DNA of 64,000 nt from Amniculibacterium aquaticum (GTDB lineage Bacteria > Bacteroidota > Bacteroidia > Flavobacteriales > Weeksellaceae): assembly GCF_003852705.1 (NCBI RefSeq), contig NZ_REFA01000013.1, positions 1 to 64,000 on the forward strand. The letters are read 5' to 3'. Both the position numbers and the translations under genes were made by a program. The notes under the pieces are model-generated. The model did not search any database, was not told the origin of the DNA, and was given only the letters and a program-made list of their open reading frames with translations. Shown here one piece after another: positions 568 through 35,108 of the stretch; positions within the stretch are counted from its first letter, which is position 1; the number at the start of each line of letters is the position of its first letter.

Positions 568-1629
568 ATGGAGAGTAACATGACCAATAAATTGATCCAT
601 TTTGAGATTAAAATATTACACCATTTCTTATTTTGGTTCGTATATTTTTTCCTAAATTTTTTACGCTGGGGATCCTACTTCAATGATTATTGGTACTCGT
701 TAAAATCCAACCTGATCGAGTTTTCGCTCATCATACCATTGGTTTATTTCAATTTATTTGTATTGGTACCTAAGCTAATACTAAGGTCCAAATACATCCT
801 ATACATTTTTGCATTACTTTGTAGTTTACTGCTCTTGTATCTGATGAAAACAGGGCTTACCTATTTCTTGATTTCTAAAAATATTTGGCCAGAAGCCAAT
901 AGAGAGTATCATTCTTTTGACATCAACCATATTGTTGCAGTGGTAATTGGCGAATTGTATGTTGTGGGTATGGCAACTTCGGTCTATTTTACATTGTATT
1001 GGCTGAAGGAAAGAGAAAGAAACCGAGCTTTGAGCGAAGAACAATTAAAAATAAAAGTTCGTAGTTTGGAATTGCAAATACAACCGCATTTCTTTTTCAA
1101 TACATTGAACAATCTTTACGCTCTATCACTGTCCAAATCCGAATTGGTAGCACCCACCATCATCAAGCTATCCAAACTCATGAAACACCTTATTTATGAC
1201 ATCAAAGAAAGTAATACTGTACTGATGACAAAGGAGTTGGACTATATTCAAAATTATATTGATATTGAAAAGCTAAGGTTTAAAAATATAGAAGTTCGTA
1301 CCAACATCAACACGGATCTTAGTGGAATTGTTGTGCCACCCATGATTTTTATAAATTTTGTAGAAAATGCGTTCAAACATGGTGGATTCAATGATATTTT
1401 TCGAATAAAAATAAATTGTTCTCTAAAAAACAAAAAATATCTTACATTTGAAGTCATCAACAATTTTGACCCGTCCAAAAAGAAGAAAATAGAAAGCGGA
1501 ATTGGGAATGAAAATGTTTTGGAACGATTGCACCTTTTATTTGGTAAAGAATTTCAGTTTCAACACAGTACCAAGTTGAATTATTATATTGCTAAACTAG
1601 AAATCCCGATTAATTATGAAGAAAATTAG
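568..1629 (+). CDS. LytS/YehU-type sensor histidine kinase
   Basis: Membrane sensor kinase of the LytS family (His_kinase domain plus HATPase_c), expected to phosphorylate the LytTR regulator encoded next to it. Four hydrophobic segments lie at about residues 13-33, 48-66, 75-97 and 120-143, with no large periplasmic domain, so the signal is probably sensed in or at the membrane. The phospho-acceptor is the His in IQPHFFFNTLNNL (about residue 174); the N-box is FVENAFKHG and a glycine box GIGNEN follows. The stop overlaps the regulator start by 14 bp, which indicates translational coupling. ATG codons at 568 and 580 are both possible starts. The ligand cannot be read from the sequence. Confidence 0.9.
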   Translation: MESNMTNKLIHFEIKILHHFLFWFVYFFLNFLRWGSYFNDYWYSLKSNLIEFSLIIPLVYFNLFVLVPKLILRSKYILYIFALLCSLLLLYLMKTGLTYFLISKNIWPEANREYHSFDINHIVAVVIGELYVVGMATSVYFTLYWLKERERNRALSEEQLKIKVRSLELQIQPHFFFNTLNNLYALSLSKSELVAPTIIKLSKLMKHLIYDIKESNTVLMTKELDYIQNYIDIEKLRFKNIEVRTNINTDLSGIVVPPMIFINFVENAFKHGGFNDIFRIKINCSLKNKKYLTFEVINNFDPSKKKKIESGIGNENVLERLHLLFGKEFQFQHSTKLNYYIAKLEIPINYEEN

Positions 1630-2317
1630 TTGTGTTATTATCGATGACGAACCTTTGGCTCAGGAAGTCATCCAAAATTACCTGAAAACCTTTCCTGATT
1701 TTGAGGTATTAGCTGCATTTCATAACGCAGTAGAAGCTTTGGATTTCCTGAACAAAAACCAAGTCGATGTTTTATTTGTCGATATCAATATGCCCATTAT
1801 TTCAGGTTTCGAACTGATAAAACTCTACGATAACAAGCACAAAACAAAAATTATTATTACCACAGCGTACAGAGAATTTGCTGCCGAAAGCTACGACTTG
1901 GATGTCTTGGATTATTTGGTGAAACCCATCCCAATCTCTCGTTTTATCAAGTGCATTAACAAAATTGAAAGCACCTTTAAAAAGCCGGAAACCGCTGCTC
2001 CTAAGAACGATTTCATCATCCTGAAAGTCGATAAAAAAATGGTAAAATTATACCATGACGACATTATTTTTGTTGAAGGCATGAAGGAGTATGTGAAAGT
2101 AATAACCCCTGAAAAGTCCTATATCACGCACAGGACGCTAACTTCGGTTTCTGAAGAATTACCCAATCAGCAATTTTATAGAGTTCATAAATCGTTTACC
2201 GTTTCTTTGGATAAAATAAACTCAATTGAGGGAAATCTTCTGCACATTTCCGGATACAAAATCCCGATTGGCAGGACCTATACCAAAGAGGTGAAATCAA
2301 AAATATTGGAAGGGTAA
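1616..2317 (+). CDS. LytTR-family response regulator
   Basis: DNA-binding response regulator of 233 residues. Residues 1-120 form a receiver domain: acidic DDE near the N-terminus, phospho-acceptor Asp56 in VDINMP, the switch Thr in TTAY and the conserved Lys in YLVKP. Residues about 135-233 form a LytTR domain, with the typical HDDIIFVEGMKEYVKV and RVHKSFTVSL stretches. It overlaps the upstream kinase gene and surely forms a two-component pair with it. No SusCD or other obvious target operon adjoins, so the regulon is unknown. Confidence 0.93.
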   Translation: MKKISCVIIDDEPLAQEVIQNYLKTFPDFEVLAAFHNAVEALDFLNKNQVDVLFVDINMPIISGFELIKLYDNKHKTKIIITTAYREFAAESYDLDVLDYLVKPIPISRFIKCINKIESTFKKPETAAPKNDFIILKVDKKMVKLYHDDIIFVEGMKEYVKVITPEKSYITHRTLTSVSEELPNQQFYRVHKSFTVSLDKINSIEGNLLHISGYKIPIGRTYTKEVKSKILEG

Positions 2318-9783: not shown

Positions 9784-10548
9784 TCATTGGTTCATCCAAT
9801 CCTTCCAATCGTTGATTTGCTGTTTGCTGACAAATACATCGGACTCCGTATCCGGTGAGGGTTGCAGTTTCAGCTCAATTTTTTGACTGGAATGTTTTAT
9901 GACATCGGAAATGGCACCGATGTTCACAATAAATTTTCTATTGATTTTGAAGAACAAATTGGGATTTATTTTCCCAATAATATCTTTAATGGTGTCTTCA
10001 TAAATGTACGATTTTTTGTCTTTTGTCGTGATGAACAAGTATTTTCCTGAAGCAAAAAAATAAGCAATATCTTCTTCCTGAAGCGATTTTAGCTGATGCC
10101 CATCGGCAACCAAAAAGCGGCTCATCAACTTGGGCTGATCGATCAAGTCCAATTTGGCTAATTTTTGTATCGAATCGCTGGGATTAAAATTTTCTAAAAT
10201 GGACAAAAATTTTTCCAAAGCGGATAACAATTGCTCCTCTTCATAAGGTTTTAACAAATAATCAATGGTAAAATGTTTAAACACTTTTAGGGCATATTCA
10301 TCATAAGCTGTGGTAAAAATGATGGGTGTTTTCAGTTCAACTTCTTCAAAAATTTCCAAACTTTTACCATCGCCCAAATGGATGTCCATAAAAATGAGAT
10401 CGACGGTGTTTTCAGAAAAAAAATCAACAGCTTGTTTCTTGGATCTCAAGCCGGTTATGGATGAAATGGACACCAAGTTTTGTCTTTCTAAAATTTCTTT
10501 CAGATAGTTCTGTGCGAGGATTTCGTCTTCAACAATGGCAATTTTCAT
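9784..10548 (-). CDS. LytTR-family response regulator of the SusCD locus
   Basis: 254-residue response regulator with a receiver domain (residues 1-120, phospho-acceptor Asp55 in IFMDIHLGDG, switch Thr in TTAYDEYA, Lys in YLLKPYEEE) and a LytTR DNA-binding domain (about 150-250, with DIAYFFASGKYLFI and KINRKFIVNI). The frame reaches 10605, but the ATG at 10548 begins the receiver fold. No kinase is adjacent; the nearest minus-strand kinase is at 18062-19642, at the other end of the SusCD block, and is the likely partner. It has its own promoter directly behind the SusD terminator. Confidence 0.92.
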   Translation of the reverse strand: MKIAIVEDEILAQNYLKEILERQNLVSISSITGLRSKKQAVDFFSENTVDLIFMDIHLGDGKSLEIFEEVELKTPIIFTTAYDEYALKVFKHFTIDYLLKPYEEEQLLSALEKFLSILENFNPSDSIQKLAKLDLIDQPKLMSRFLVADGHQLKSLQEEDIAYFFASGKYLFITTKDKKSYIYEDTIKDIIGKINPNLFFKINRKFIVNIGAISDVIKHSSQKIELKLQPSPDTESDVFVSKQQINDWKDWMNQ

Positions 10549-10555
10549 GATGGTA

Positions 10556-10563
10556 CAAAAATA
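10556..10563 (-). promoter_or_regulatory. -7 box for the LytTR regulator
   Basis: On the minus strand this reads TATTTTTG, a full match to TAnnTTTG, and ends seven bases before the ATG at 10548. It is placed directly downstream of the SusD terminator. No good -33 element is visible. Confidence 0.55.
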
Positions 10564-10599
10564 CAAAAAACCGCCTAAACTATAAAAGTCTAAACGGTT
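10564..10599 (-). terminator. Rho-independent terminator after SusD
   Basis: On the minus strand AACCGTTTAGAC pairs with GTTTAGGCGGTT (12 bp with G-U pairs, 7-nt loop), followed by TTTTTTG. It separates the susCD transcript from the regulator gene. Confidence 0.72.
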
Positions 10600-10628
10600 C
10601 CTCAATAAAAATTGATATGAAGAATTTA

Positions 10629-11948
10629 TTATAAGTTCGGGTTATTTTTCTTTGCCGAAGGTGGTATTGCAATGGTGTAACGAACATCGTTGGCTTGTAG
10701 GGTAAATACCGTACCGTTGATGTTGTGAACAATTTGTTTTTGGTTGGCTCTTCTCAGGTCGTACCATCTTTGTCCTTCCAAGGCAAACTCACGATTTCTT
10801 TCGTCCAAAATAAAATTCATAAATGCTGCATTGTCCATGGTAGAAATGGATGCTTGTACCGTTGCAAGACCGGTTGCATTGTACCTTTTCTCTAAAACAG
10901 GCATCAAAACATCTTTTGAATTTTGTAACTGATTCAGTTTCAACAAGGCTTCAGCTTTTATAAAATACAGCTCAGCCGTACGGAAAGAAACTCTAAAGTC
11001 CGTACTGCCTCCTTTTTTCACTTTGTATTTACTGCCTGTTTTTTCGTAATAGATTCCGAATCTTTTGTCGTTGTTGGCATCGTAGCTTGCAATAAGCTCT
11101 GGTGATGCGTAAGCCACATTTTGAACTCCATTATTAAGAGCAAAATCCAAAGCTAAAATGGACTCTTTAGAATCGAAACGGTTGGGAGCAGCCGTGCTGG
11201 TATTGAGATCTACCAAGTCATTCTGAATGGCCAATGCTTGGTTGGCAAAATCCATGGCAGATTGATGGTTATTTTGGTACAAAGAAACTCTGGCTTGCAA
11301 AGCTTTCAAAGCAACTTTTGAGAAACGGTATTTGGTAGCTTGCTCCTGTTTTTCTGCATTCATCAACGATTCGGCCTTGTCTAAATCCGAATGAATTTGA
11401 TCATAAACTTGCTGAACAGAAGATGCTGGCAACACCTGTTCCAGATCAATCTCTAAACTGATTGGGACTCCTTTGTCAGACGAAGCCGTTGCTGCATTGT
11501 ACGGTTTTCCGTATAAATTTACCAAATCAAAATAGGTGTATGCTCTTAGAGCATAGGCTTCCGCCAAAATTTGGTTTTTCTCGGCCCCTTCCGTCATGGT
11601 TTTTGTCCCTTCGTTGATGGTTTGGTTGGCATAAAAAATCACGGAATAAAAACTTACCCAAGGAAATTCTACAGTTACTGCATCCAGGTTAGAATCTTTC
11701 CACATGGCGATTTCTCGGTAATTTGGGAAATCCATGCTGTTGTCATTAATCATCAATTCATCTGTTCGAAGTGCTGTTAATGATTTGTGCGTTGGGTATT
11801 TGGCATAAGCCGAAGTCAACACTTTTCTGTAATCTTCTGTAGTCGTAGGGATTACTTTACCTTCCGGTTGTATATCTAAAAAGCGGTCGCAACTTACTGA
11901 ACTTAAACTAAGTGCTACCAAACCTATGATTGCGAATATTTTTTTCAT
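10629..11948 (-). CDS. RagB/SusD-family nutrient-binding lipoprotein
   Basis: 439-residue surface lipoprotein that captures a nutrient and caps the SusC-type channel. The signal peptide ends at the lipobox cysteine in SVSCDRFLDIQPEG; the DRFLDI..P stretch is the usual SusD N-terminus. TPR-like helices occupy about 75-230, and the C-terminal FILDERNREFALEGQRWYDLRR is the SusD/RagB signature. It lies 13 bp after the SusC gene on the same strand, a normal SusCD pair. No glycoside hydrolase or lyase adjoins, while a metalloprotease does, so peptides are a reasonable guess for the ligand. Confidence 0.95.
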   Translation of the reverse strand: MKKIFAIIGLVALSLSSVSCDRFLDIQPEGKVIPTTTEDYRKVLTSAYAKYPTHKSLTALRTDELMINDNSMDFPNYREIAMWKDSNLDAVTVEFPWVSFYSVIFYANQTINEGTKTMTEGAEKNQILAEAYALRAYTYFDLVNLYGKPYNAATASSDKGVPISLEIDLEQVLPASSVQQVYDQIHSDLDKAESLMNAEKQEQATKYRFSKVALKALQARVSLYQNNHQSAMDFANQALAIQNDLVDLNTSTAAPNRFDSKESILALDFALNNGVQNVAYASPELIASYDANNDKRFGIYYEKTGSKYKVKKGGSTDFRVSFRTAELYFIKAEALLKLNQLQNSKDVLMPVLEKRYNATGLATVQASISTMDNAAFMNFILDERNREFALEGQRWYDLRRANQKQIVHNINGTVFTLQANDVRYTIAIPPSAKKNNPNL

Positions 11949-11961
11949 AATTTTCTAAATC

Positions 11962-14900
11962 TTAAAATGAAACATTAAATCCTACCGTTACCGATTTTTG
12001 GATGGGTTGAGCATAGATATTTCCATAAGTTTCTGGGTCGAAATATCCATTGTAACCGTTACTGAATACAAACAAGTTTCTACCCTCTACACTCAAACGA
12101 AGTGTGGAAACTCCTATGGCATCCGAGAATTGTTTTGGCAAAGTATACCCCAAACGGATGCTCGAAATTCTTAGATACGAAATTTCTTTTGCCCAAAGAT
12201 CCAAAAGTGCATAGGTATTGGCTCGGTTATCAGCAAACCATTTGTTACCCATCCATCCTTCTGGATTGGCGTTGATGTCCGGACTGGTAATCCCCGGCAG
12301 TGTAGTTCCGGCTTGCCAAATATCGGTGGTATAGTTTCGGCCACGATCCAACTCCATTCCTCTATACGACGGCGATCTCATTACGGTTTGTTTCAAATTG
12401 AATGCTGCCGAAATGGATAGATCAAAGTTTTTATATTTGAAATTATTGATAATCCCTCCGGTAAATTTCGGATCCCTATCACCTACATAGGTAAACAATC
12501 CACGGATTTGCTCATTGGTTAATTTGGTGTTCACCAATTGTCCCGGGAAGAAATCGGCCCACTCATCATACAATTGGAAAAATTCTGCTGCAGACACCTT
12601 TTCATCTCCTTTCCAAAACAACGGATTTCCATATTGATCAATTCCTGCCGTTTTCAGAGCAAATACGGCATTAACCGGCAAACCAACTCGTGAAGGCAAG
12701 GTCGAATTGTCTCTCACCTGTTCGTCTAAAACTTCACTTTTGTTGTGTGCAAAGTTGATGGTGGTATTCCATTGGAAATGGTCTGATTTAATATTTTTTG
12801 TGGACAAAGCCAATTCAAAACCTTTATTGGTCAGACTTCCCCAGTTCACCATGGTATATTCGAAACCGGTTTCTAGTGGGGTTTCTTTCATGCTGATCAT
12901 GTCGGTACCTTTTCTATAATACACATCGGCAGTTAGATTGATTCTGTTGTTGAACAAACCTAAATCTACACCTAAATTGGTATTGGCGGTTTTTTCCCAA
13001 CGCAATTTTCCGTTTGGTGGACTGATGACATTGATGATGTCTTCTTTGTTCCCCGGAAGTATGGTGGTATCGCTGTACTCTCCGATAAAATATGGAGATG
13101 TATTTCTGTCGATATTTCCTTGAAGTCCATACGATGCTCGTAATCTTAGATTGGAGATAAAATCTAGATTTTTCATAAAATCTTCTCTGGACACCAACCA
13201 CGAAGCTGAGGCAGCCCAAATCGGAAGATATCTGTACTTTTTATCGACACCGAAAAGGTTGGTACCATCGTATCTGGCAGAACCAAAGAAGGTGTATTTT
13301 TTGTCCAAAGTATAAGATCCCGTTGCATAGAAAGAGGCGTACGCATTTTCTATTGGAGCTACTTCTCTGTATGCTTCAAATCTTTTGTCGGAAGCAAAGT
13401 TAGAGCTTGGAAAGACGATAGATGTTGCTCTTTTCGTAACCGGGTTGTACCCAAAAGCTCTGGTAATGGTGGTATGGTCTTCAGTTTTTCTCAATTCGGA
13501 ACCGGCCATCAAATCAATTTCGTGACGGTTACCAATTTTGGTACTGTACAGGGCTTGCAATTTCCAGTTGTATTGGAAGAAATCGTTGTCCCAATTTTGT
13601 TTTATGGCTCCATCGGGTAAGAAATATTTGTAGCCGCCATTTTGATAGTAGCGGGTACTTTCTTTCATTTTTCTAGTGAAATAGGTGTTTTCCCCTGCAT
13701 ATTTTTCGGTATCGTTCACATCGTATTGCACCCCGAATTGGGAAGTCAACTTCAATCCTTTGGACAGTTTATATTCCAAATCCAAAATGGCTTTCAAGGA
13801 TTTATTTTTCAAGAAATAATGGGTATTCTCTCTTTCTTCCATAAAGTTGAACGGCACATAACGATCATCAAAACCATCAATATCTTTGTCGTAGTTGTAC
13901 GATCCATCGGCTTTGAACGGCGAAAGATACGGATTGGCATTTCTGGAATAGTTCACCGGGTTGATGGAAGCATCGGCATCGGTTACAAAAGAATCTTTTT
14001 GGCTGGAAGTACCGAAAACGGAAATTCCGACATTCAATTTATTGTTTACTTTAAAATTATTTTTCAAAGTAAGGTTCAGTCGGTCAAAACCAGTTCCTAT
14101 CGTTGTACCTTGTTCGTTAAAATATCCAAAAGAGGCGTAGTAATCCGAAACATCATTTCCTCCTGACAGACTTACACCGTATTGACGGTTAATGGCTGTT
14201 CTATACAACAATTTCCCCCAATCGGTAGTATTCGCTCTCAAGGCGTTAATTTGAGATTGAGTTGTTGCATCCAAAGCACCCCAACCTCCATTTCTATAGG
14301 CCGTAAGTTGATTGTTGGCATTCAGGATACGCATAACCTCACCTTTATCTTCACGGTAGGTAAGTTCTGGTCTTCCCGCCATCATCAATTCCAAATCTAC
14401 TTTTTCTGAAGCATTTAGTAAATTTAGTTTAGAAAAGTCCGGTCTAAGGTTTACAAAAGTATCGGCGTTGAAGTTGACCTTCATGGCACCCTTTTTACCT
14501 TTTTTGGTTGTGATGGAGATGACACCATTGGCTGCTCTAGCTCCATAAATTGCAGTTGCAGCGGCATCTTTTAGTATGGTGATGTCTTCGATATCGTTGG
14601 GGTTAAGTCCGGCGATGGAGAAGTTCTGGAGCTGATCTAAATTTTCTTTGTCGCTAAAATTTGGCACATCGTTTCCTTCCAATGGCAAACCATCAATCAC
14701 CCAAAGTGGGTCTTGAGGACCGGAAAGAGAAGCAGTACCTCTAATTCTTATTTTGGCTGGACTACCGGGAGCACCCGTTTCTGGAGTAACAACTACTCCG
14801 GCAACTTGTCCCATCAACAATTTATCCACACTGGCAACTCCGGATTGTTGTATGTCTGCCATCTTCACCGTATTCACCGCTGAAGTTAGTTTTCTTTTTT

Positions 14901-15300
14901 CAATTTTTTGATACCCTGTAAGTACAACTTCTTGTATGTTCGTTTCTTTTTTAGAACTTGTTACGGGTTGTAGTTTTATAACATATTCCGTCTGACTTGG
15001 GAACAGTTGAAGTATTTCTGCTTCGTAACCTGGAAAACTGATGGTTACCGTTTGGGTATCCTTCGGGATTTCTAATGAAAATTGACCGTTTGCCGTAGAA
15101 ATTGTTCCAACCGAAACACTTTCGATAATCCCTTTTTGCTGGGTTGTAGATGAAACAGATTGTGCATCGATCTTTATAGATGCACCTACCAATCCTTTGG
15201 AGGTAGAGGCATCTTGTACCGATCCAGTGATCACTCTTTTCTCCTGTGCATAAGTGAAACTTGCTGCTAGAAGAGGTAAAAGAATTAATGATTTTTTCAT
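11962..15300 (-). CDS. SusC/RagA-family TonB-linked outer-membrane transporter
   Basis: 1112-residue outer-membrane importer. The signal peptide (1-18) ends TYAQ. A carboxypeptidase-regulatory-like domain follows (about 22-115, VITGSVQDASTSKGLVGASI), then the QEVVLTGYQKIEKR stretch typical of SusC proteins, the plug (about 150-270, with GTASLSGPQDPLWVIDGLPL and ILKDAAATAIYGARAANGVI), and the barrel ending SVTVGFNVSF. It would transport the ligand held by the adjoining SusD, driven by TonB. No clear -7 box was seen in the 95 bp before the start, so it may be co-transcribed with the metalloprotease upstream. Confidence 0.95.
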   Translation of the reverse strand: MKKSLILLPLLAASFTYAQEKRVITGSVQDASTSKGLVGASIKIDAQSVSSTTQQKGIIESVSVGTISTANGQFSLEIPKDTQTVTISFPGYEAEILQLFPSQTEYVIKLQPVTSSKKETNIQEVVLTGYQKIEKRKLTSAVNTVKMADIQQSGVASVDKLLMGQVAGVVVTPETGAPGSPAKIRIRGTASLSGPQDPLWVIDGLPLEGNDVPNFSDKENLDQLQNFSIAGLNPNDIEDITILKDAAATAIYGARAANGVISITTKKGKKGAMKVNFNADTFVNLRPDFSKLNLLNASEKVDLELMMAGRPELTYREDKGEVMRILNANNQLTAYRNGGWGALDATTQSQINALRANTTDWGKLLYRTAINRQYGVSLSGGNDVSDYYASFGYFNEQGTTIGTGFDRLNLTLKNNFKVNNKLNVGISVFGTSSQKDSFVTDADASINPVNYSRNANPYLSPFKADGSYNYDKDIDGFDDRYVPFNFMEERENTHYFLKNKSLKAILDLEYKLSKGLKLTSQFGVQYDVNDTEKYAGENTYFTRKMKESTRYYQNGGYKYFLPDGAIKQNWDNDFFQYNWKLQALYSTKIGNRHEIDLMAGSELRKTEDHTTITRAFGYNPVTKRATSIVFPSSNFASDKRFEAYREVAPIENAYASFYATGSYTLDKKYTFFGSARYDGTNLFGVDKKYRYLPIWAASASWLVSREDFMKNLDFISNLRLRASYGLQGNIDRNTSPYFIGEYSDTTILPGNKEDIINVISPPNGKLRWEKTANTNLGVDLGLFNNRINLTADVYYRKGTDMISMKETPLETGFEYTMVNWGSLTNKGFELALSTKNIKSDHFQWNTTINFAHNKSEVLDEQVRDNSTLPSRVGLPVNAVFALKTAGIDQYGNPLFWKGDEKVSAAEFFQLYDEWADFFPGQLVNTKLTNEQIRGLFTYVGDRDPKFTGGIINNFKYKNFDLSISAAFNLKQTVMRSPSYRGMELDRGRNYTTDIWQAGTTLPGITSPDINANPEGWMGNKWFADNRANTYALLDLWAKEISYLRISSIRLGYTLPKQFSDAIGVSTLRLSVEGRNLFVFSNGYNGYFDPETYGNIYAQPIQKSVTVGFNVSF

Positions 15301-15395
15301 AGGTTGTAAAATCTTTTTTTTAATGACCCTATGCTTTCGCTAATTTACGATTATTCTCATTTTCATGGGTATAGCGATTGCATAATTGGCTATAA

Positions 15396-17957
15396 CTATT
15401 TATTCAATGCTTCTTTAATACGGGTGATTAAATCTGCGTAATGCGCTTGCGTATTGGTGTCGCCGTTGTTTTTTTTCTTTTGTACAATATCCAAAACTTT
15501 TTGAAGTTCTGCTCTTTTGTATGTGGTGACTTCAGAAACTCTTTTCATGGAAGAATAGTTGATGTTTCTCGCCATTTTATCATCATCCAAATGATTGCAT
15601 ATCGTAGGCATTCTTAAAGTTTGATCTATGGTAATGCCTTTTACTGAAGTCTTCTCAAACAATTTATTGGTTGAAACAATTAAGGCATCCACATAATTTT
15701 TCTGAGTCATTCTTTCTAAAATACTCAAGCTTCCTTTTTTGTTGAATGCGACATTGCGAACTTGTTCAAACAAATCAGAAACGGTATATATCTCGTTCTT
15801 TGTTCCCAACTCCTCTTGCTTCAGTTCATTTTCCAACATCCTTAACAATCGATCGTCTGCAAAAAGATAATAGATATTCGAATATTGCATTTCTCTTGCC
15901 AAAGTATAAGGCGATTGCTCATACGGACCCATTGGGGATTTCTTGACAGCGTAAGTTTTCTCTAATATTGGATTAAAAAACAACCACTTTGGAATTTCTA
16001 AAATATTCTTGGTCAGATAATCTACCGCTTTTCTTTGCATTGCTGCCGGTACTGCTTCATAGGCTTTTTTATGATTTCCAAAAACGGCTTGGTTCAGATA
16101 GATACCACCAACATTGGCCATAACATGGTGGTTGTAAAGATCCCACTGACCGATGGTTCCGAAATACAATTTTCCGGCTTCCTCGTAATTTTTTCCTTCT
16201 TCAGCAGTCCAAGTCAAAAGATTGTCGACTACTCTTTTTAGGTTTTTCATTCCGTATTCACTGGCCAATACGGCATCATCACCCAAGTCTTCGGATTGAG
16301 AACGAGGATCAACGGTATCCAAATAACTTTGTTGTTCGCCATAAAAATACAAGGGATCGTTTTGGTGAGTTTCGATCAGCTTTTTTAAAGCTATTTTTTC
16401 TACATTCGAATTTTCAAACCAACGATAGCCCCATTCTATGGCATATTTGTCATAAACACCAATTTTGGGCGTAATGGCTGTAACACCATCTTCCGGTTGT
16501 GCTACATAGTTATATCGGGCATAATCCATGATGGAAGGAGCTGTACCTCCCATTTTATCGGTAAATTCTTTGGATCTTAGAGATTCGACAGGATAGGCAA
16601 AAGAAGATCCCATGTTGTGTTTCAGACCAAAGGTGTGTCCTACTTCATGAGAAGAAACAAATCGAATGGCCTCTCCCATATGTTCGTCAGAAAATTTATT
16701 TCCTCTGGCTTTAGAGTCTATGGGGCCGGTTTGTATGCGCATCCACTCGTGTAGGGAAGTCATCACATTGTGCCACCAAACGATATCCGATTCCAAAATT
16801 TCGCCACTTCTAGGATCCACGACAGAAGGTCCCATGGCATTGGCTTTTGGAGATGCCACATAGGTAATTACCGAATAACGGACATCATCAATATCAAAAT
16901 CTTTGTCGTCTGCTGTTGGCATTTTTGCAAGTACTGCATTTTTAAAACCTGCTTTTTCAAAAGCGACTTGCCAATCGTGCACCCCGGCGATAATTTTTTC
17001 GCGCCATTGCTTTGGTGTAGCCGGATCAATGTAATATACAATCGGTTTTTTAGGCTCTACCAATTCTCCTCGCAAATATTTTTCTTTGTCTTCATCTTTA
17101 GGTTCCAACCTCCAACGGGTGATCAGTTTTTTCTCTTCCATTTTCTGCTGACCGTCGTTGAAGTACCAATGTTTTTCTGTAAAATATCCCAATCTATCGT
17201 CTGCAAACCTCGGTTGCATCGGTGTTTTGGAAAGTAAAACAATATTGCTGGTCACCCCCAAAGTTACGGCCATATCTACTCCACCTTCATTCACAGAAGT
17301 TGTAAGTTGAGATTTAACCACCACATTTTCAGGGAAAGTTTTTACGGCATCAATGTAGGACAGATCCGACTTTACCGAACCTCCCAAACCGGTGTTGGCC
17401 AAGACATCGTTAAAACTTTTTTTATTACCATCAAATATTTTGTTCACTTTGATGGCTACAGAAGTGGAATCTGAATTTTGAGCTTCCACATCAAAAACTT
17501 CTATGATGGATTCCGCAAAATTTTCTTTTACCGATTGGGTAATGGCGTCATTTTCAGGTGAAGAAACTTTAGGCGTTGAGGTTTTTACCCAAACTTTTTT
17601 GGCCACTTTATCGTGATGAAAGGTGATGACTTTATTTTCATAATTCATCCCTTTGTTCAGTCCGGCTTCGTTCACCGCCATCGGAACTTGAGAAATTTTA
17701 TTAACCACCAAAAACTGCCTGCCCATCAAAGAATCGGGAATCTCAAAATACACATCGGTTTTCACCTGAATGGTATTAAACATTCCTTTGTTATAGCTTC
17801 CTTTTTTGATGAGTTCGTCAATTTTCTTCACTTTTTTGGAAGAATCTGATTTTTCAGTTTTCTCTTTATTTGCTTTGTCGTCCTCTTTTTTCTGGGCATA
17901 AACACCTGAAGAATAGAGAGCAACGGCTAAATAAATGGCTAATCTAAATTGTTTCAT
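15396..17957 (-). CDS. Zinc-dependent metalloprotease (DUF5117/DUF4953 type)
   Basis: 853-residue secreted protein. The N-terminus has a signal peptide (about 1-21, ending VYAQ) followed by a charged Lys/Glu/Asp-rich stretch. The zinc site is His437-Glu438-x-x-His441 with His447 as third ligand (HEVGHTFGLKHN), a metzincin-like HExxHxxGxxH pattern. The flanking regions fit the Bacteroidota family with DUF5118, DUF5117 and DUF4953 domains. Family substrates are poorly known. It lies between a sensor kinase and SusC on one strand, so it may cut proteins into peptides for the SusCD pair or process locus components. It has no T9SS tail, so it is more likely periplasmic or outer-membrane associated. 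Confidence 0.9.
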   Translation of the reverse strand: MKQFRLAIYLAVALYSSGVYAQKKEDDKANKEKTEKSDSSKKVKKIDELIKKGSYNKGMFNTIQVKTDVYFEIPDSLMGRQFLVVNKISQVPMAVNEAGLNKGMNYENKVITFHHDKVAKKVWVKTSTPKVSSPENDAITQSVKENFAESIIEVFDVEAQNSDSTSVAIKVNKIFDGNKKSFNDVLANTGLGGSVKSDLSYIDAVKTFPENVVVKSQLTTSVNEGGVDMAVTLGVTSNIVLLSKTPMQPRFADDRLGYFTEKHWYFNDGQQKMEEKKLITRWRLEPKDEDKEKYLRGELVEPKKPIVYYIDPATPKQWREKIIAGVHDWQVAFEKAGFKNAVLAKMPTADDKDFDIDDVRYSVITYVASPKANAMGPSVVDPRSGEILESDIVWWHNVMTSLHEWMRIQTGPIDSKARGNKFSDEHMGEAIRFVSSHEVGHTFGLKHNMGSSFAYPVESLRSKEFTDKMGGTAPSIMDYARYNYVAQPEDGVTAITPKIGVYDKYAIEWGYRWFENSNVEKIALKKLIETHQNDPLYFYGEQQSYLDTVDPRSQSEDLGDDAVLASEYGMKNLKRVVDNLLTWTAEEGKNYEEAGKLYFGTIGQWDLYNHHVMANVGGIYLNQAVFGNHKKAYEAVPAAMQRKAVDYLTKNILEIPKWLFFNPILEKTYAVKKSPMGPYEQSPYTLAREMQYSNIYYLFADDRLLRMLENELKQEELGTKNEIYTVSDLFEQVRNVAFNKKGSLSILERMTQKNYVDALIVSTNKLFEKTSVKGITIDQTLRMPTICNHLDDDKMARNINYSSMKRVSEVTTYKRAELQKVLDIVQKKKNNGDTNTQAHYADLITRIKEALNK

Positions 17958-18045
17958 TCCTTATTATAAAATTATAAAATCCATAATTCTACCTATGAAT
18001 TTGCAGTAAATATAAAGGTGACTGCAATAAAAATGAAACAAAAGA

Positions 18046-18081
18046 GAGTGAATGGATAATTTTATGGAGTGAATGGATAAT
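18046..18081. repeat. 15-bp direct repeat at the 3' end of the kinase gene
   Basis: GAGTGAATGGATAAT occurs at 18046-18060 and again at 18067-18081. The second copy lies in the last codons of the kinase gene, the first just beyond its stop codon. It may be a slippage duplication. Confidence 0.6.
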
Positions 18082-19642
18082 CCGTATCCAAAAACGGAAT
18101 GAAAACATGAAATTGGTCCTTATCTATCCAAGTTCTGAATTCATCATTTTTATAAAATGTGCATGTTTTTTGCAAATAATTCAAACCAAAATGCTCACCT
18201 ACCGGTTTTTTCTGTTTGGGTTGATAGGTATTTATCACAAAAATTCCGTTTTCGCTATCGTACAATTTTATAAACAAAGGATGATCTACAGTAGCAATAT
18301 TGTGTTTGATGGCATTTTCGACTACGATTTGCAAGGACAGATACGGAATCTTTTTATTGAGATTTTCAGGTATTTCTATGTTTTTTTCAAACTGAATCTC
18401 ATCTTCAAAACGACTTTTTTGTAAGTCCATAAACGGATTTATGAACTTCAACTCATCCTTTACCAAGACCAAGTTTTCTTTGGGTGGAATGATGATGTAT
18501 CTGTAAATTTTAGACAAATTCATTGTGAATTTTTGCGCTTTTTGCGGATCCAAACCAATTAGCATATAAAGCGAATTTAATGAATTGAATAAAAAGTGTG
18601 GATTGATTTGATTTTTAAGTTGTTGCAATTGATTAATGGCATTTTCTTTATGCATTTCTTCATTTATGATCAGGAGTTTATTCTTCTCATTTTGCACCAA
18701 TTCCTTTTCTTTATACGCATTGTTGGTGGCTTGATGGAACACAATAAAAATAATGGAAATCAGCAAAATCGTTGCTAGAAAGATGTAGATAATATAATTT
18801 TTGGTCTTATTGACATTTTCATCAATCAAAAAATTCACATAATTCACAGCGACATAACCGTCAAAATTTCTCGTTTTCAGAGGTTTTATAAATCGTAAAA
18901 CTTCTAAATTAAGGTACTCCGAATTTACTTTTCTCTCGGTATTCCCCATTTCAGGAGTTATGGTGTCTTTTGGGACGATGTTGGTAAAGCCGAATACATT
19001 TTTTCCAATAAATTTTTGTTCGGGATGGGTAATGCATGTACCGTCTTTTGAAAAAACAAAGGCATAATTGTTTTGGCTTTGTGTGACCTCTGAAAAATAA
19101 TCGTGTAAATTATTTAGATTGATGGTAAATCCGTAATATCCATTAAATTCTGGAGAACGATTTTTTTGGTAATTGACCCAAAACATGGAGTCTTTTACTG
19201 TTACAAAACAACTGTTCTGTTTCGTAGTTGTCAAAAACGATTTTGTACTAAAATCTTTTTGATTGTTAATTTTATTTTTAAAAAAATACGGAAACAAATT
19301 CTTTTCGTTATCAACATTCGAAACCCAATTGTAGGGTTTGATATTTTGCTGAATTTTAAATTTATTCAACAATTCAAACTCTGTTTTAATTTCGTTTTCA
19401 GATCTGTTCTTTGTCATTTCATTCAGAGAAATCTGATAATTTTCAATATTCGAAAACACATTGCTTATGGCGATATATTTATTCTGAAATGCTTTTCTAG
19501 CACTTTCTTCATTGATTTTCTTGCTTTCATTGGTGATCAGAAAACTAGAAACAACAAAAGCCAAAAAGGCAATAACACATACGACAATTGCGATGATGAA
19601 GATGGGTTTTCGAGAATTTAGATTATAAAAAATAGACTTCAC
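18062..19642 (-). CDS. LytS-like sensor histidine kinase with periplasmic sensor domain
   Basis: 526-residue kinase. Transmembrane helix 1 covers about residues 13-35, an extracytoplasmic sensor domain about 36-280 (reminiscent of a Cache domain, with NGYYGFTINLNNLHDYF and AFVFSKDGTCITHPEQKFIG), helix 2 about 283-305, then a coiled linker, the His_kinase region with His349 in INPHFLFNSLNSLYML, and an ATPase with VVENAIKHN. The large sensor domain sets it apart from the kinase at 568-1629. No regulator adjoins; the orphan LytTR regulator at 9784 is on the same strand beyond the metalloprotease, SusC and SusD. Its last codons lie in a 15-bp direct repeat. Confidence 0.9.
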   Translation of the reverse strand: MKSIFYNLNSRKPIFIIAIVVCVIAFLAFVVSSFLITNESKKINEESARKAFQNKYIAISNVFSNIENYQISLNEMTKNRSENEIKTEFELLNKFKIQQNIKPYNWVSNVDNEKNLFPYFFKNKINNQKDFSTKSFLTTTKQNSCFVTVKDSMFWVNYQKNRSPEFNGYYGFTINLNNLHDYFSEVTQSQNNYAFVFSKDGTCITHPEQKFIGKNVFGFTNIVPKDTITPEMGNTERKVNSEYLNLEVLRFIKPLKTRNFDGYVAVNYVNFLIDENVNKTKNYIIYIFLATILLISIIFIVFHQATNNAYKEKELVQNEKNKLLIINEEMHKENAINQLQQLKNQINPHFLFNSLNSLYMLIGLDPQKAQKFTMNLSKIYRYIIIPPKENLVLVKDELKFINPFMDLQKSRFEDEIQFEKNIEIPENLNKKIPYLSLQIVVENAIKHNIATVDHPLFIKLYDSENGIFVINTYQPKQKKPVGEHFGLNYLQKTCTFYKNDEFRTWIDKDQFHVFIPFLDTDYPFTP

Positions 19643-29294: not shown

Positions 29295-32200
29295 TTATTC
29301 AATTATCAGTTTTGTACCTTGGGTTCTGCTGTTCATTTGTGGGGCATAGTAGTTTTGCAAAGTTGTAATTCCGTTGCTGAAGACTCCAGAGACATTGGCT
29401 ACCAAATCGTACTCGAAAACGAATTGGCCTTTTGGCAAATACTCAATAAAAAATTGGGTAGAAGCATCTTTTGTCACCTGATAATACGCCAAATTATTTT
29501 TCCATTGGTATGCGGAAAGCACATCTACAGGCTCCAAACCGGCAGCTCTCATGTCTTTAAGCAGAACAAATTCCATTGGTCTATCTGCATTCAGGATCAT
29601 ACGAACTGTTATTTTGTCACCGATTTTTAATGGAGCGTTTTCTGTGATCTTCTGCAATTCTTCACCGTTTACCGTTTTCACTTTTTTGTACAATTCTTTG
29701 GTTAGCGAAATGTAGTTTTCTGTAGATTTCACTTGGTTCAAATCTTCATAATATTGCCAAAACAAGCCCCCTTGCACAATTCCCGGACTGTCTTTTTTGA
29801 TGCTGACAGTTGCCAAACTTTCATCCATCTTCTCCGAGTAAACCGATTGTTTTAGATATCCAGAACCTTTGGTTTGTGGATGCATCTCTTTTCCACCCCA
29901 AAGAATTTCTGCTTTGTCCGAAGCATCTGCGGTCCAAGATTTTCCAGAATTCAGAATGGTAAAAATGACTTCTGCTGTACTTCTGCTGGTATCCCAATGC
30001 GAAACCTCTTTTTGGGTGATGAGCCAAATCTTCATTTCCTCTACGAATTTTTGATCGTTACCCAATTTCTCAAAAGCTTCCAAAGCACCTGCATGGTTGA
30101 CCAATTGAGAATTGTACCAACCCCAATTGTCAATATTCGATTTCCAATATGCACCTTGGTTATCGCTTTCAACCGAAGTTTCTTTCAGGTAAGTCATCAG
30201 TTTTTTCGATAATTCTTTCAAGCCATAATCGTTGAACAAGAGTGCAGCTCTATGCAATCCGAAGAACGAAAAATCTTCAATTTCAGCTTTTTTAGCTTTT
30301 TGAACGACTAAATTTTTCAAAAATTTACCATTTCCAGAAAGAGGATATTGGCTTTCCCAATAATTTCTGGTGTCCAAATAGTCCAGCGCAAAATTGGACC
30401 ATGCATTTCCTTTGTTTACTTCAAAATAGCGATTCAACTCTTGATCAACAAATCGTATCAACCTGCCCACCATTTCATTTTGTTCCGTAGATTGATACTC
30501 ATTTGGAGTATTTTTTAGCCAAGAATTTAATTTACCCAACTGTTTCAGAATATACAATGACGACGAATACGAACTTGGATAACCCGCCATCCAAGAGAAA
30601 CCACCGTCTGTATTTTGGAGTTTTTTCAGCTCGTCCCAATCTTGGTTAATGGAATTTCGCATGGTATTGGCATCAAAGAGTCTGGCTATTTTTTGCATTT
30701 GTCCTTCTTCATTCTTAGCGTCCAAAACCCAAGGAGTTTCCTCCAACAGAAGTTGTTTCAGTTCTTGATTTTTGCTCAGATTAGAACCAAGTAAACCTTT
30801 GGATTGATAGTCCTCAAAAACGGATTTCAATTTTGGGTTTGTTCTAAAAATTTCCGCAGCCAATACATCTGCAAACCATTTGTTGAAGACGACATCTGCT
30901 GAGGTGTTGTTATCGTTTTTCAAACCGGGCAATGCGAAAATAACTTCCCAAATCGGATTGGTCGTTAGCTCCAACGAATTGGAAATGTTGGTTGCTGTGG
31001 TGGATTTGTTTTGGGCTAAATTTTCAAGCACAAAAGATTTGGTTTGACCTTCTTTTACGAAAACAGGGACGGCATCGGTTACCATAATTCTATTGGGTAA
31101 AATGGGCACTGCTTTTTGTTCGCCATCGGAGAAATTTCCAGTCTTGGCAACGGTCTTGATGACGATAGCTTCGGCACCGTTCGGAACTTTTAGAGTCCAA
31201 GAAGCCATCGTACTTTCACCAGCCTTTACCGTGAATGATTTTTGAATGTCATTTAAATTGAATTTAGACGAAATATCTTCATTAGAAAATGCATCCAAAA
31301 TCTGAAGCTGAACCGTTCCGTTTAAATTTTCTTTAGACAGATTGTTCAGTTTTGATTTAAAGATCAACTCATCGCCTTCCCTTAAAAATCGAGGATAATT
31401 GGGAGTTACGGAAAATTCTTTCTGGGTAACTACGGTTTTTTCCAAAGTAGCGGCTTCTGCATTTTTGGTATGTGCCAAAAACATGAGTTTCCAACGGGTA
31501 AGTGCTTCCGGTGAAGTAAATTCAAATGATACATTTCCATCTTTGTCAGTCAATAAATTTGGATAGAAAAATGCCGTTTCGCTAAGGTTTTCTCTTAGTT
31601 TTACTCCAGATAAATCTGCATTAAGATTTTTAAGTTTCGTTGCGGTTTTAGAATACCCCATTACAACTTCAGTAGCCGCAGTAGAACCAAAATTGGATGT
31701 TCCTCTTATCATCATATCTACCGAAGGAGCCGGACTACTTTCTGAATAGACCCTATTTTCCGATTTGTACTTCTTTCTGGCGTATATATAGTCATCCATC
31801 CATCTAAATTGGGGTTGGTAAATCTCTACAAACTTTATGTAAGGAATTCTTTTATAATAACTGAATCTATCTATATCCTGTTTGGAGTTTCTAAAATAAT
31901 TGATGTACCTCTGTATTTTTTCATAGAGTGGGTTCCAAACGAAATCGTTGGAGGCAAACTGATCCAAAGATTGGTCGTACATATTCGCCAAGACTTCGGC
32001 ATTCACTTTTTCGTTTTTGTCGCCTGTAATTTTTATCGTCCATTTTTCTTTTTGTCCAGGCTCTAACTTGTCTCTAAAAGTGATGGTTTCTATATTCAAT
32101 CCTTTCTTTTCGGATTTTATTTTAATATTTTTTGTTTGAGTTTGTACATCACCCAATGCGACCAACTGAAACTGAAAATCAAGATCCGAAATACTTTCGT

Positions 32201-35108
32201 CATTTGGAAGTTTGGTTTCATAAAGATAATACCCGTTGTTCAGTTTTACGGTTTCGTATTTGGTATTTCCATCGCCATTTTGTGTATAAATATGTACCAA
32301 AGCATCCTTCACACCAGAATAAATATAAAATTTAGCTTTATCGTTTCTGTTGTATTCGTTTTTTTCTTCGACAACTTTTAGAAATGGAAGTTTGGAACTC
32401 AAAGATTTTTTGTCGAAAACCTCAAATTTTTGTGATGTTATTATGGTGTCTTTACCTTCTACATTATAGACTTCCAGTTTGTAATTTCCCACTTCCAGTT
32501 TGTCCATGATTTGGTAAATACCGCCCTCTACAGGTTGCATTTTTTGGTCAAAAATCACTTTTTCTACCTTATCTTTTTTCTCTTCATTCGAAAAATAATC
32601 GTGTGGAAACTTTAGATTAAAATCGGTTTCAGACATCATCGGATCGTTCTGAATCTCATTTTCAAAATTACTTCTATACAGCTTTTTAGGACTTATGAGT
32701 TTAGACAATTTTACGGTGAAAGGTTTTTTAATGATCTGGTTGTTGTAATTTTTCGCTTCAACTTTTACAGAAATATTTTCATCTGAAAAATAATTGAATT
32801 TAACATCCGAAAGAGATAGATGGTGCGATACCGAAGAAACCAAAATCGATTTTTCGGTCGATTGACTTTCTCCGTTGATGTCGGCAACCGAAGCTTTTAT
32901 TTTATAATTATCCACTTGTATCCCATCCAGATTTTCATCTTTTTTCAAGTCTAATGCTACGGTAAACTCTCCTTTTTCATTGGTTTTTGTTGAACCTAAA
33001 ATGGAATTATCGTTATCTGTATTTTCATGATACCAGTTAAAATACTTCCAACGAATATTTCTTTTTATAATTTCATAATTTACCGTTGCATTGGCAATGG
33101 GAATTCCGGAAAAAGAAACGGCTTTTCCTTTCAGCTCAATCGTTTTACCGTATTGATATTCCTCTTTAATATTGGAAAATTCTACTTCGAAATTGGGTCT
33201 TTTGAATTCTTCAACTCTAAAATACACCAACGATTCATTGTCGATTCTTAGGGAAAAAATACCGTTCACTTTATTTTTTGGCAATACAAAATTCCCCTGA
33301 AAAGACCCAAAACTGTTTGTTGTAAAGTTTTGTGAATCCACTTCTTGTCCATTAGAATCAAGCAATTTCAGCACCACCTTTCGGTTATTTTCTACAGACT
33401 CTTTTTTGTTGAGCAATTGAGTTGCAATCCCTTTGAAATAAAGCGTTTGACCGGGTCTGTAGATGGCTCTATCCAAAAACATTTGTATTTTCTTTTGATC
33501 GGGGTTATCAAAATTATGATGTACTTTAACCTGTTGTTCAAATTTTACAAGAGAATAATCGTCTGTTAGCTTATTTTTCACAAGGCAAGTAGCATTATAC
33601 ATTACCGAATTTGCAGCCGAAAAACTACCGTCTGTTTTGGTTATTAAATCAGTTTGTTTTAGTTCTTTATCATCCAACTGAAATAAAGAAATCGGTGTAT
33701 TTGCAAACGGTTTTCCATCGTAATTGTCAACCAATTTCCAAGTATTTTGTACATTTGGCGAATAGCTTATTTGCTGAAAAATAACAGCCGTATTCGTTAC
33801 TATAAAATAAAAATTGTCTATAGATTTACCTTCCACTTCGTACTCTGCGACATACAATCCGGAGGGCAAAACCCCAACATCCAAAGCCGTAGATTTCTTT
33901 TTATAATCTTGAGTTGGCAACAAATTAAAAGTTTGAGTTTTTACAAGAGATTTTTTTAATGTTTTAAAAATATCATTTTGCCAAGCATTCTGAATGTATT
34001 TTAGGATAACAGCTTCATTGCCTTTAACCGAATATATTTTCAACTGAAAACGATCCAAATTAGTATAAGTTGCAACCATTTGTATGGGTCTATTCGCCAA
34101 GGTCGTTTTTTCATACTTCACAACGAGATTCGGCTGTACAATTTGATTTTTATAAAAGCGAAGTTCAATTAAAAAAGGTGACTTAGGATGGTCTTTTTCG
34201 GCTTTTGCAATCCAAGACATGGCATCTGTAAATTGTTCTTTGGACATTAACAAAACAACAATTTCTTTAGCGATATACACTTTGTAATCCCCTTCTGTAG
34301 GCGATTGATAAAGAGAAGTAAGTTGTTCTATTTTGTTTTTACATGAACCATTAGCACAATCGTTTTTTATTTTTTGAAGCTGAAAATAGAGTTTGGCATT
34401 TCCCGTATTTTCTGCTATCAAATCGTTTTCGATGGTCGTGATTTGGGTCTGATTTTCTTTTCTTTCCAATGGCGTAAAAAGCTCATTGCTCTTCAAAAAA
34501 TTTATATAATTTTTCCCAAAATATTCCAATAACGACGGGAAATACTCTAAATGTTCCGCCTTATCGAAAATTGAGCGGTAAGGCATCAGTTTGACATTCT
34601 TTAACGATGCTTTATTGCGGTACAGTTCTGCATAATTTTTTTGTAAATACAATTTAAAATCCAACTCAGACCAAGTTTCAATCTTTGTGAGATCCTGAGA
34701 GTTGATGTTGGTTCTGTTGTTAATTTTCCAAGAATTTTGTTCATAATAATCCGCAATGAATTCATGTTTCAGTATTTCAAAAACCCAACGATCGTTCCCG
34801 TTTGTGTTTTTTTCTAAGGATAAAATTTTACCAAAAAAAACGGAAGCTTCGTTATTTTTCTCATCGTTATTCGTATTTTTTAAAATGGAAAATTCGGCTT
34901 TTAACGATTTGATGATTTCTAAGGCATTTTCCTCTTTGACGGCTTGTTTTTGAAGCTCTAAAACCTTTGGCAACAACGATTTGTACTGCCCAGAATTGCT
35001 AAGTTTATCGATCTCTTTCCATTGTTTTTGATAAAAATCTTGTGATTTCATATATCCAGAATTACAGAATATTAAAGTGAAAATTAAGAGTTGAAGGAAT
35101 CTATTCAT
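29295..35108 (-). CDS. Alpha-2-macroglobulin-like protein (MG2/A2M), no thioester
   Basis: 1937-residue exported protein, the largest in the window. Signal peptide about 1-22, then a helical region to about 330, then macroglobulin MG domains including the MG2 signature FLDRAIYRPGQTLYFKG (near 580), a Ser/Asn-rich A2M core around SETAFFYPNLLTDKDGNVSFEF, and the alpha-toroid (TED) domain around 1480-1780 (DWDELKKLQNTDGGFSWMAG). Where thioester members carry CxEQ, this protein reads LPGLKNDNNTSADVVFNKWF, so it cannot trap proteases covalently. The usual partner penicillin-binding protein 1C is not adjacent. It may shield the cell against proteases or act in envelope assembly. Confidence 0.88.
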   Translation of the reverse strand: MNRFLQLLIFTLIFCNSGYMKSQDFYQKQWKEIDKLSNSGQYKSLLPKVLELQKQAVKEENALEIIKSLKAEFSILKNTNNDEKNNEASVFFGKILSLEKNTNGNDRWVFEILKHEFIADYYEQNSWKINNRTNINSQDLTKIETWSELDFKLYLQKNYAELYRNKASLKNVKLMPYRSIFDKAEHLEYFPSLLEYFGKNYINFLKSNELFTPLERKENQTQITTIENDLIAENTGNAKLYFQLQKIKNDCANGSCKNKIEQLTSLYQSPTEGDYKVYIAKEIVVLLMSKEQFTDAMSWIAKAEKDHPKSPFLIELRFYKNQIVQPNLVVKYEKTTLANRPIQMVATYTNLDRFQLKIYSVKGNEAVILKYIQNAWQNDIFKTLKKSLVKTQTFNLLPTQDYKKKSTALDVGVLPSGLYVAEYEVEGKSIDNFYFIVTNTAVIFQQISYSPNVQNTWKLVDNYDGKPFANTPISLFQLDDKELKQTDLITKTDGSFSAANSVMYNATCLVKNKLTDDYSLVKFEQQVKVHHNFDNPDQKKIQMFLDRAIYRPGQTLYFKGIATQLLNKKESVENNRKVVLKLLDSNGQEVDSQNFTTNSFGSFQGNFVLPKNKVNGIFSLRIDNESLVYFRVEEFKRPNFEVEFSNIKEEYQYGKTIELKGKAVSFSGIPIANATVNYEIIKRNIRWKYFNWYHENTDNDNSILGSTKTNEKGEFTVALDLKKDENLDGIQVDNYKIKASVADINGESQSTEKSILVSSVSHHLSLSDVKFNYFSDENISVKVEAKNYNNQIIKKPFTVKLSKLISPKKLYRSNFENEIQNDPMMSETDFNLKFPHDYFSNEEKKDKVEKVIFDQKMQPVEGGIYQIMDKLEVGNYKLEVYNVEGKDTIITSQKFEVFDKKSLSSKLPFLKVVEEKNEYNRNDKAKFYIYSGVKDALVHIYTQNGDGNTKYETVKLNNGYYLYETKLPNDESISDLDFQFQLVALGDVQTQTKNIKIKSEKKGLNIETITFRDKLEPGQKEKWTIKITGDKNEKVNAEVLANMYDQSLDQFASNDFVWNPLYEKIQRYINYFRNSKQDIDRFSYYKRIPYIKFVEIYQPQFRWMDDYIYARKKYKSENRVYSESSPAPSVDMMIRGTSNFGSTAATEVVMGYSKTATKLKNLNADLSGVKLRENLSETAFFYPNLLTDKDGNVSFEFTSPEALTRWKLMFLAHTKNAEAATLEKTVVTQKEFSVTPNYPRFLREGDELIFKSKLNNLSKENLNGTVQLQILDAFSNEDISSKFNLNDIQKSFTVKAGESTMASWTLKVPNGAEAIVIKTVAKTGNFSDGEQKAVPILPNRIMVTDAVPVFVKEGQTKSFVLENLAQNKSTTATNISNSLELTTNPIWEVIFALPGLKNDNNTSADVVFNKWFADVLAAEIFRTNPKLKSVFEDYQSKGLLGSNLSKNQELKQLLLEETPWVLDAKNEEGQMQKIARLFDANTMRNSINQDWDELKKLQNTDGGFSWMAGYPSSYSSSLYILKQLGKLNSWLKNTPNEYQSTEQNEMVGRLIRFVDQELNRYFEVNKGNAWSNFALDYLDTRNYWESQYPLSGNGKFLKNLVVQKAKKAEIEDFSFFGLHRAALLFNDYGLKELSKKLMTYLKETSVESDNQGAYWKSNIDNWGWYNSQLVNHAGALEAFEKLGNDQKFVEEMKIWLITQKEVSHWDTSRSTAEVIFTILNSGKSWTADASDKAEILWGGKEMHPQTKGSGYLKQSVYSEKMDESLATVSIKKDSPGIVQGGLFWQYYEDLNQVKSTENYISLTKELYKKVKTVNGEELQKITENAPLKIGDKITVRMILNADRPMEFVLLKDMRAAGLEPVDVLSAYQWKNNLAYYQVTKDASTQFFIEYLPKGQFVFEYDLVANVSGVFSNGITTLQNYYAPQMNSRTQGTKLIIE

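Follow-up and report, generated by a model that had tools for sequence, protein, structure and literature searches.

Among transporters of known structure, those closest to the SusC–SusD pair described here are ButC and ButD of Bacteroides (PDB 8YPT and 8YPU). The title of 8YPT, 'Cryo-EM structure of BfUbb-ButCD complex', names a protein ligand, and BfUbb is a secreted ubiquitin-like antagonist of B. fragilis strains (PMC5705921). The SusCD fold is shared by RagAB of Porphyromonas gingivalis, whose cargo is peptide (6SLI, entry title 'RagAB peptide transporter'). Control of a transporter gene by a LytS-type kinase and a LytTR regulator is familiar from the BtsS/BtsR (YehU/YehT) and YpdA/YpdB systems of E. 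coli, where the kinases perceive pyruvate as multi-pass Lyt-type receptors. Known LytTR sites consist of two repeats of 9–11 nt separated by spacers of 11–13 nt (PMC4847170), or of 9-mers spaced mostly by 12 bp and lying about 10 bp upstream of the −35 element (PMC6193735); the oligonucleotide for E. coli YehT/BtsR reads ACCGCTTA-N13-ACCACTCA (PMC4847170). The locus analysed here combines these two known kinds, a ButCD-branch SusCD and LytTR control of a transporter; what is new is the link between the parts, by way of an operator-like repeat. No description of the five-gene combination with its operator was found in the literature searched, and a search on DUF5117/DUF4953 gave nothing usable.

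The locus lies in a window of 64,000 nucleotides from Amniculibacterium aquaticum. Positions 9784–19642 hold five consecutive open reading frames on the minus strand, encoding a LytS-type kinase, a DUF5118-DUF5117-DUF4953 metalloprotease, SusC, SusD and a REC-LytTR regulator. The features, in the direction of transcription, are as follows.

18062..19642, minus strand: sensor histidine kinase (PF06580, 5.5e-23; dCache_1, 1.5e-7, below the curated cut-off)
18046..18076, minus strand: predicted LytTR operator, two direct repeats CCATTCACTC (18076-18067 and 18055-18046) with a 21-bp period
18007..18014, minus strand: predicted −7 promoter box TATATTTA, Bacteroidota TAnnTTTG type, 5/6 matches, 31 bp past the repeat
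15396..17957, minus strand: zinc metalloprotease of the met-zincin type (PF17162, PF17148 and PF16313, 9e-110)
11962..15300, minus strand: SusC-type TonB-dependent transporter, ButC branch (TIGR04056, 643 bits)
10629..11948, minus strand: SusD-type surface lipoprotein, ButD branch (PF14322, PF07980; lipobox C20)
10564..10604, minus strand: predicted intrinsic terminator (18 pairs; z −3.2), closing the protease–SusC–SusD operon
9784..10548, minus strand: REC-LytTR response regulator (longest reading frame from 10605; likely ATG at 10548)

The kinase begins with a transmembrane segment, followed by a periplasmic dCache-like domain (a weak dCache_1 match), a second transmembrane segment and a LytS-type His_kinase domain. 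Its H box, QINPHFLFNSL, and N box, VENAIKHN, contain cores (PHFLFN and EN..KHN) that are invariant in 78 orthologues, as is the phospho-acceptor aspartate of the regulator (FMDIHLG); the locus thus holds both a PF06580 kinase with its phospho-His and a REC-LytTR regulator with its phospho-Asp. The protease carries the HEXXHXXGXXH motif (HEVGHTFGLKH) and a Met-turn, SIMDY, which are likewise unchanged in the 78 orthologues, so that no catalytic or phosphorylation residue varies in any of the 78 loci. The window protein carries a Sec signal but no lipobox, and Pfam detects no T9SS tail domain, from which we infer a secreted or periplasmic protease; its periplasmic place, its activity and its role in the system are predictions. 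Since a PDB sequence search with the protease returned weak matches only, it has no close solved relative. A bacterial alpha-2-macroglobulin (1937 aa, a protease trap) is encoded in the same window at 29295–35108 on the minus strand.

SusC adjoins SusD, as in RagAB-like uptake systems. No STN signalling domain was found in SusC, and the lipobox Cys20 of SusD is invariant among orthologues. No terminator was found between the protease and SusC genes. The regulator gene is preceded by the terminator at 10604–10564 and then by its own TATTTTTG promoter box, which together place its start probably at ATG 10548 and the gene outside the susCD operon. Neither carbohydrate-active enzymes nor glycan-binding proteins occur in the block, its immediate neighbours or its conserved partners, and the locus does not qualify as a PUL. 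The neighbouring genes in the window (DsbA-like, MgtC, BrkB) are unrelated and ordinary.

Relatives were retrieved through the protease at 69–86% identity, giving 80 loci in named genomes. The order kinase–protease–SusC–SusD–regulator is complete, with intact reading frames, in 78; the remaining two, L050 and L080, are truncated by a contig end or by N. Loci with the conserved order span Chryseobacterium, Empedobacter, Chishuiella, Faecalibacter, Flavobacterium and Myroides, and an order kept across 78 uncut loci is far beyond chance. The flanking genes of the window are retained solely in the nearest relative (L001), and the five genes are therefore a unit rather than a frozen stretch of chromosome. 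Mean identity to the window falls from 75% for the protease to 69% for SusC, 59% for SusD, 58% for the regulator and 45% for the kinase; on the same measure the sensor domain of the kinase ranges from 24 to 50% and SusD from 44 to 79%. An earlier note on this DNA had described five genes in one direction, named their families and remarked on the lack of sugar enzymes. All of the reading frames are present, the families are matched by profile, and no sugar enzyme was found in the block. The genomic comparisons that the note proposed are in its favour: gene order is identical in all but the two cut loci, and in the 78 uncut ones this same protease and SusCD always come with the kinase and regulator, which flank them at opposite ends as described.

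The gap between the kinase and protease genes contains a direct repeat, WCCAYTCACTC-N10-WCCAYTCACTC, with a period of exactly 21 bp. Its first half overlaps the last codons of the kinase gene at 18062–18076 (CCATTCACTCCA, encoding P-F-T-P), and the site likewise begins within the kinase gene in 15 of 73 relatives. The strict core pattern, sought with periods of 19–23 permitted, is present in this gap in 73 of the 80 loci, always with a period of 21; five of the other seven have one substitution in one half and two are cut. The strict repeat was found nowhere else within the 80 loci, nor in 1.0 Mb of fetched loci of other types, and in the 2.55-Mb home genome it is unique even when up to 3 mismatches are allowed. 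Across 198 genomes of the family it occurs in 36, always as a single copy: in 36 of the 37 that carry an orthologous protease (75% or more identical) versus 0 of the 161 that do not. In the 37th genome only part of the protease is present, from residue 171 onward. An Rfam search gave no match.

The position of the repeat is equally regular. In 75 of 78 loci a TAnnTTTG box follows the repeat at a distance of 31–32 bp, so that the repeat lies immediately upstream of the −33 region; a sigma-70 scan gave chance-level results, as expected in Bacteroidota. Both the repeat length and the spacer, as well as the location upstream of the target promoter, agree with LytTR sites. The likeness to the BtsR target extends to the 21-bp period and to the half-site ACCACTCA, which is also present in several of the repeat sites found in the family genomes. 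The conserved repeat would thus mark the protease–SusC–SusD promoter as the predicted LytTR target, and it lends support from sequence to the proposal of the earlier note that the LytTR protein controls susCD. Autoregulation of the kinase and regulator through the same repeat was considered and rejected, as no copy lies upstream of either gene.

One locus offers a natural rearrangement. In L129 (771–13453, genome G499) the protease stands alone on one strand and regulator, kinase, SusC and SusD on the other, with two other reading frames between the protease and SusCD units. A separate period-21 repeat precedes each of the two units, at 674/695 before the protease gene and at 11002/11023 before the SusC gene. 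This double repeat, seen in one genome only, is expected if protease and SusCD must both stay under the same regulator.

Because an adjacent LytS-type kinase/LytTR pair lies only 7 kb from the locus (window 568–2317, plus strand; contig 13:1054/2036), the pairing of kinase with regulator was checked across the whole genome. There are three PF06580 kinases; two adjoin LytTR regulators of their own, the pair just mentioned and another at contig 31:14009/15024, and the third is the kinase of the locus. By elimination it is likely, on this genomic evidence, that the locus kinase pairs with the locus regulator. The elimination is not exclusive, since a further LytTR regulator (L147; contig 34, 2183–2947) is unpaired: its neighbours are a radical-SAM gene and an IS3-like insertion, and no PF06580 kinase adjoins it. 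Co-evolution does not single out the pair either, as pairwise distance correlations among the five proteins are all 0.93–0.98. When F. johnsoniae was coevolved with B. thailandensis, one or other of two adjacent LytTR/kinase genes, FJOH_RS09515/09520, was hit in five of five lines (PMC10197871, Table 2).

The sensor differs from the pyruvate receptors of E. coli in being dCache-like, and the present kinase and regulator, unlike the E. coli pairs, flank the target operon. The dCache_1AA motif for amino acids is R-x-W-Y..D. A fold search with the sensor ranked amino-acid chemoreceptors (PctA, PctB, Mlp37) and a methanogen-type kinase sensor highly, but with TM scores of only about 0.4–0.6. W75 of the sensor is invariant and mostly followed by an aromatic residue, with no conserved arginine two positions before. 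No ligand is therefore assigned to the sensor, the fold matches being too weak and the arginine of the motif missing.

The kinship of the transporter is clear. In PDB sequence searches 8YPT/8YPU stand well apart from all other SusCD structures, for SusC (E 1e-276 versus 1e-64 for the next match) and for SusD (3e-96 versus 2e-15); over the compared part SusC is about 50% identical to ButC, and SusD is 40% identical to ButD. An AlphaFold2 model of SusD (pLDDT 80) has 8ypt_A as its first-ranked fold, with TM 0.89–0.92. RagAB is more remote: SusD is 19% identical with TM 0.71, and SusC scores 1e-51 compared with 1e-276 for ButC. To our knowledge, the description of RagAB includes no metzincin or two-component system. 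The SusCD pair, whose SusD gene is one of only two in the home genome at the Pfam level, is thus a member of a known branch rather than the atypical SusCD that had been supposed. A SusCD with a collagenase in an F. psychrophilum transcriptome was set aside, as it is not shown to be the present locus.

The relatives of ButC with 60–75% identity form protease–SusC–SusD operons in all 14 loci inspected, which are placed in the Bacteroidaceae by their ButC kinship and not by a label; kinase, LytTR regulator and 21-bp repeat, present here, are absent from all of them. A second clade of Weeksellaceae (protease 54–61%) also has protease–SusC–SusD without kinase or regulator, and its L083 locus is decayed. 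A search for ButC in the order of genome G069, a different lineage, found none. In a protease tree, built quickly and with some long outgroup branches, the ButCD-linked proteases fall into a single clade (support 100), within which those from loci with kinase and regulator make up a single subclade (support 100); solitary or FecIR-SusCD-linked proteases fall outside the ButCD-linked clade. A second, separate joining of a DUF4953 protease to SusCD is seen in Flavobacterium and relatives (L101, L112 and L113), with the order FecI-FecR-SusC-SusD-metalloprotease; these loci differ in their ECF sigma/anti-sigma control (both genes checked in L113), in having the protease last, in a longer SusC and in the protease clade.

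The occurrence of protease, SusC and SusD alone in Bacteroidaceae and some Weeksellaceae identifies these three as the core, to which the two-component system was, judging from these genomes, probably a later addition. Kinase and regulator are accordingly not essential parts of the system. The simplest history is an old protease–ButCD core, with the two-component system and operator gained once in Flavobacteriales; the alternative is loss of kinase and regulator in the second Weeksellaceae clade.

From what can be read in the sequence (the gene set and its conservation, a unique operator-like repeat in fixed promoter geometry, the operon end and ButCD-branch membership) we propose, as a reasonably probable account, that a dedicated two-component switch controls a ButCD-type system taking up peptides or small proteins. 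The dCache-like domain would detect an extracytoplasmic signal, and the kinase would phosphorylate the LytTR regulator, its likely partner. Phosphorylated regulator would then bind the single pair of repeats upstream of the protease gene and presumably activate, rather than repress, the one protease–SusC–SusD operon. SusD and SusC would capture a polypeptide for TonB-driven import, and the co-expressed periplasmic metzincin would probably degrade or trim it. That ButCD was solved with a protein bound favours import of peptide or protein, which is the best reading of the cargo by analogy. The peptide- or protein-foraging system suggested earlier thereby gains some support as regards import, with peptides as the predicted native cargo. 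BfUbb itself may be a ligand that takes advantage of ButCD, the normal cargo being something else.

How far the cargo is specialised is a point on which readings diverge. Instead of bulk peptides, the cargo may be a specific small protein of signalling or toxin-like character, or else a cofactor or metal bound to peptide, with the protease disarming or processing what the kinase detects. That the nearest solved pair was solved with BfUbb, the antagonist of B. fragilis strains (PMC5705921), points this way, as do the fast evolution of sensor and SusD beside a nearly fixed protease and a predicted regulon of one operon, which would be unusual for bulk nutrition. Toxins usually exploit nutrient receptors, however, and no toxin-like or immunity-like gene is seen travelling with the locus, whose flanks are mostly unconserved; we regard this reading as unlikely. 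A narrower form, in which one extracellular polypeptide, for example a small protein from kin or competitors, is sensed and imported by a dedicated single-operon system with a periplasmic protease for the cargo, seems to us a little harder still to credit.

Most characterised SusCD pairs import glycans, and the metalloprotease could be incidental to a glycan or other non-peptide locus. Yet protease, SusC and SusD have stayed together without sugar enzymes from Bacteroidaceae to Flavobacteriales and the closest structure carries a protein, which makes such a cargo very improbable. It is improbable, too, that another regulator binds the repeat while kinase and LytTR protein act mainly elsewhere. 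A repeat cannot by its sequence identify the protein that binds it, and an unpaired LytTR regulator is present on contig 34; but the repeat is found only alongside this kinase and regulator, is absent from protease–SusCD loci that lack them, and has the geometry of a LytTR site.

Gut Bacteroidaceae and flavobacteria have in common a conserved metzincin–ButC–ButD core, to which the flavobacterial version adds a sensor of its own and one predicted operator whose position is precisely known. The latter is a candidate LytTR target site in Bacteroidota, of which no example turned up in the literature searched. If the reading of a single dedicated polypeptide were true, protein sensing, import and destruction would be contained within one five-gene cassette. 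Because the predicted regulon is one operon, ligands found to switch on its promoter would reveal the usual cargo of the ButCD branch, beyond what the complex with BfUbb tells.
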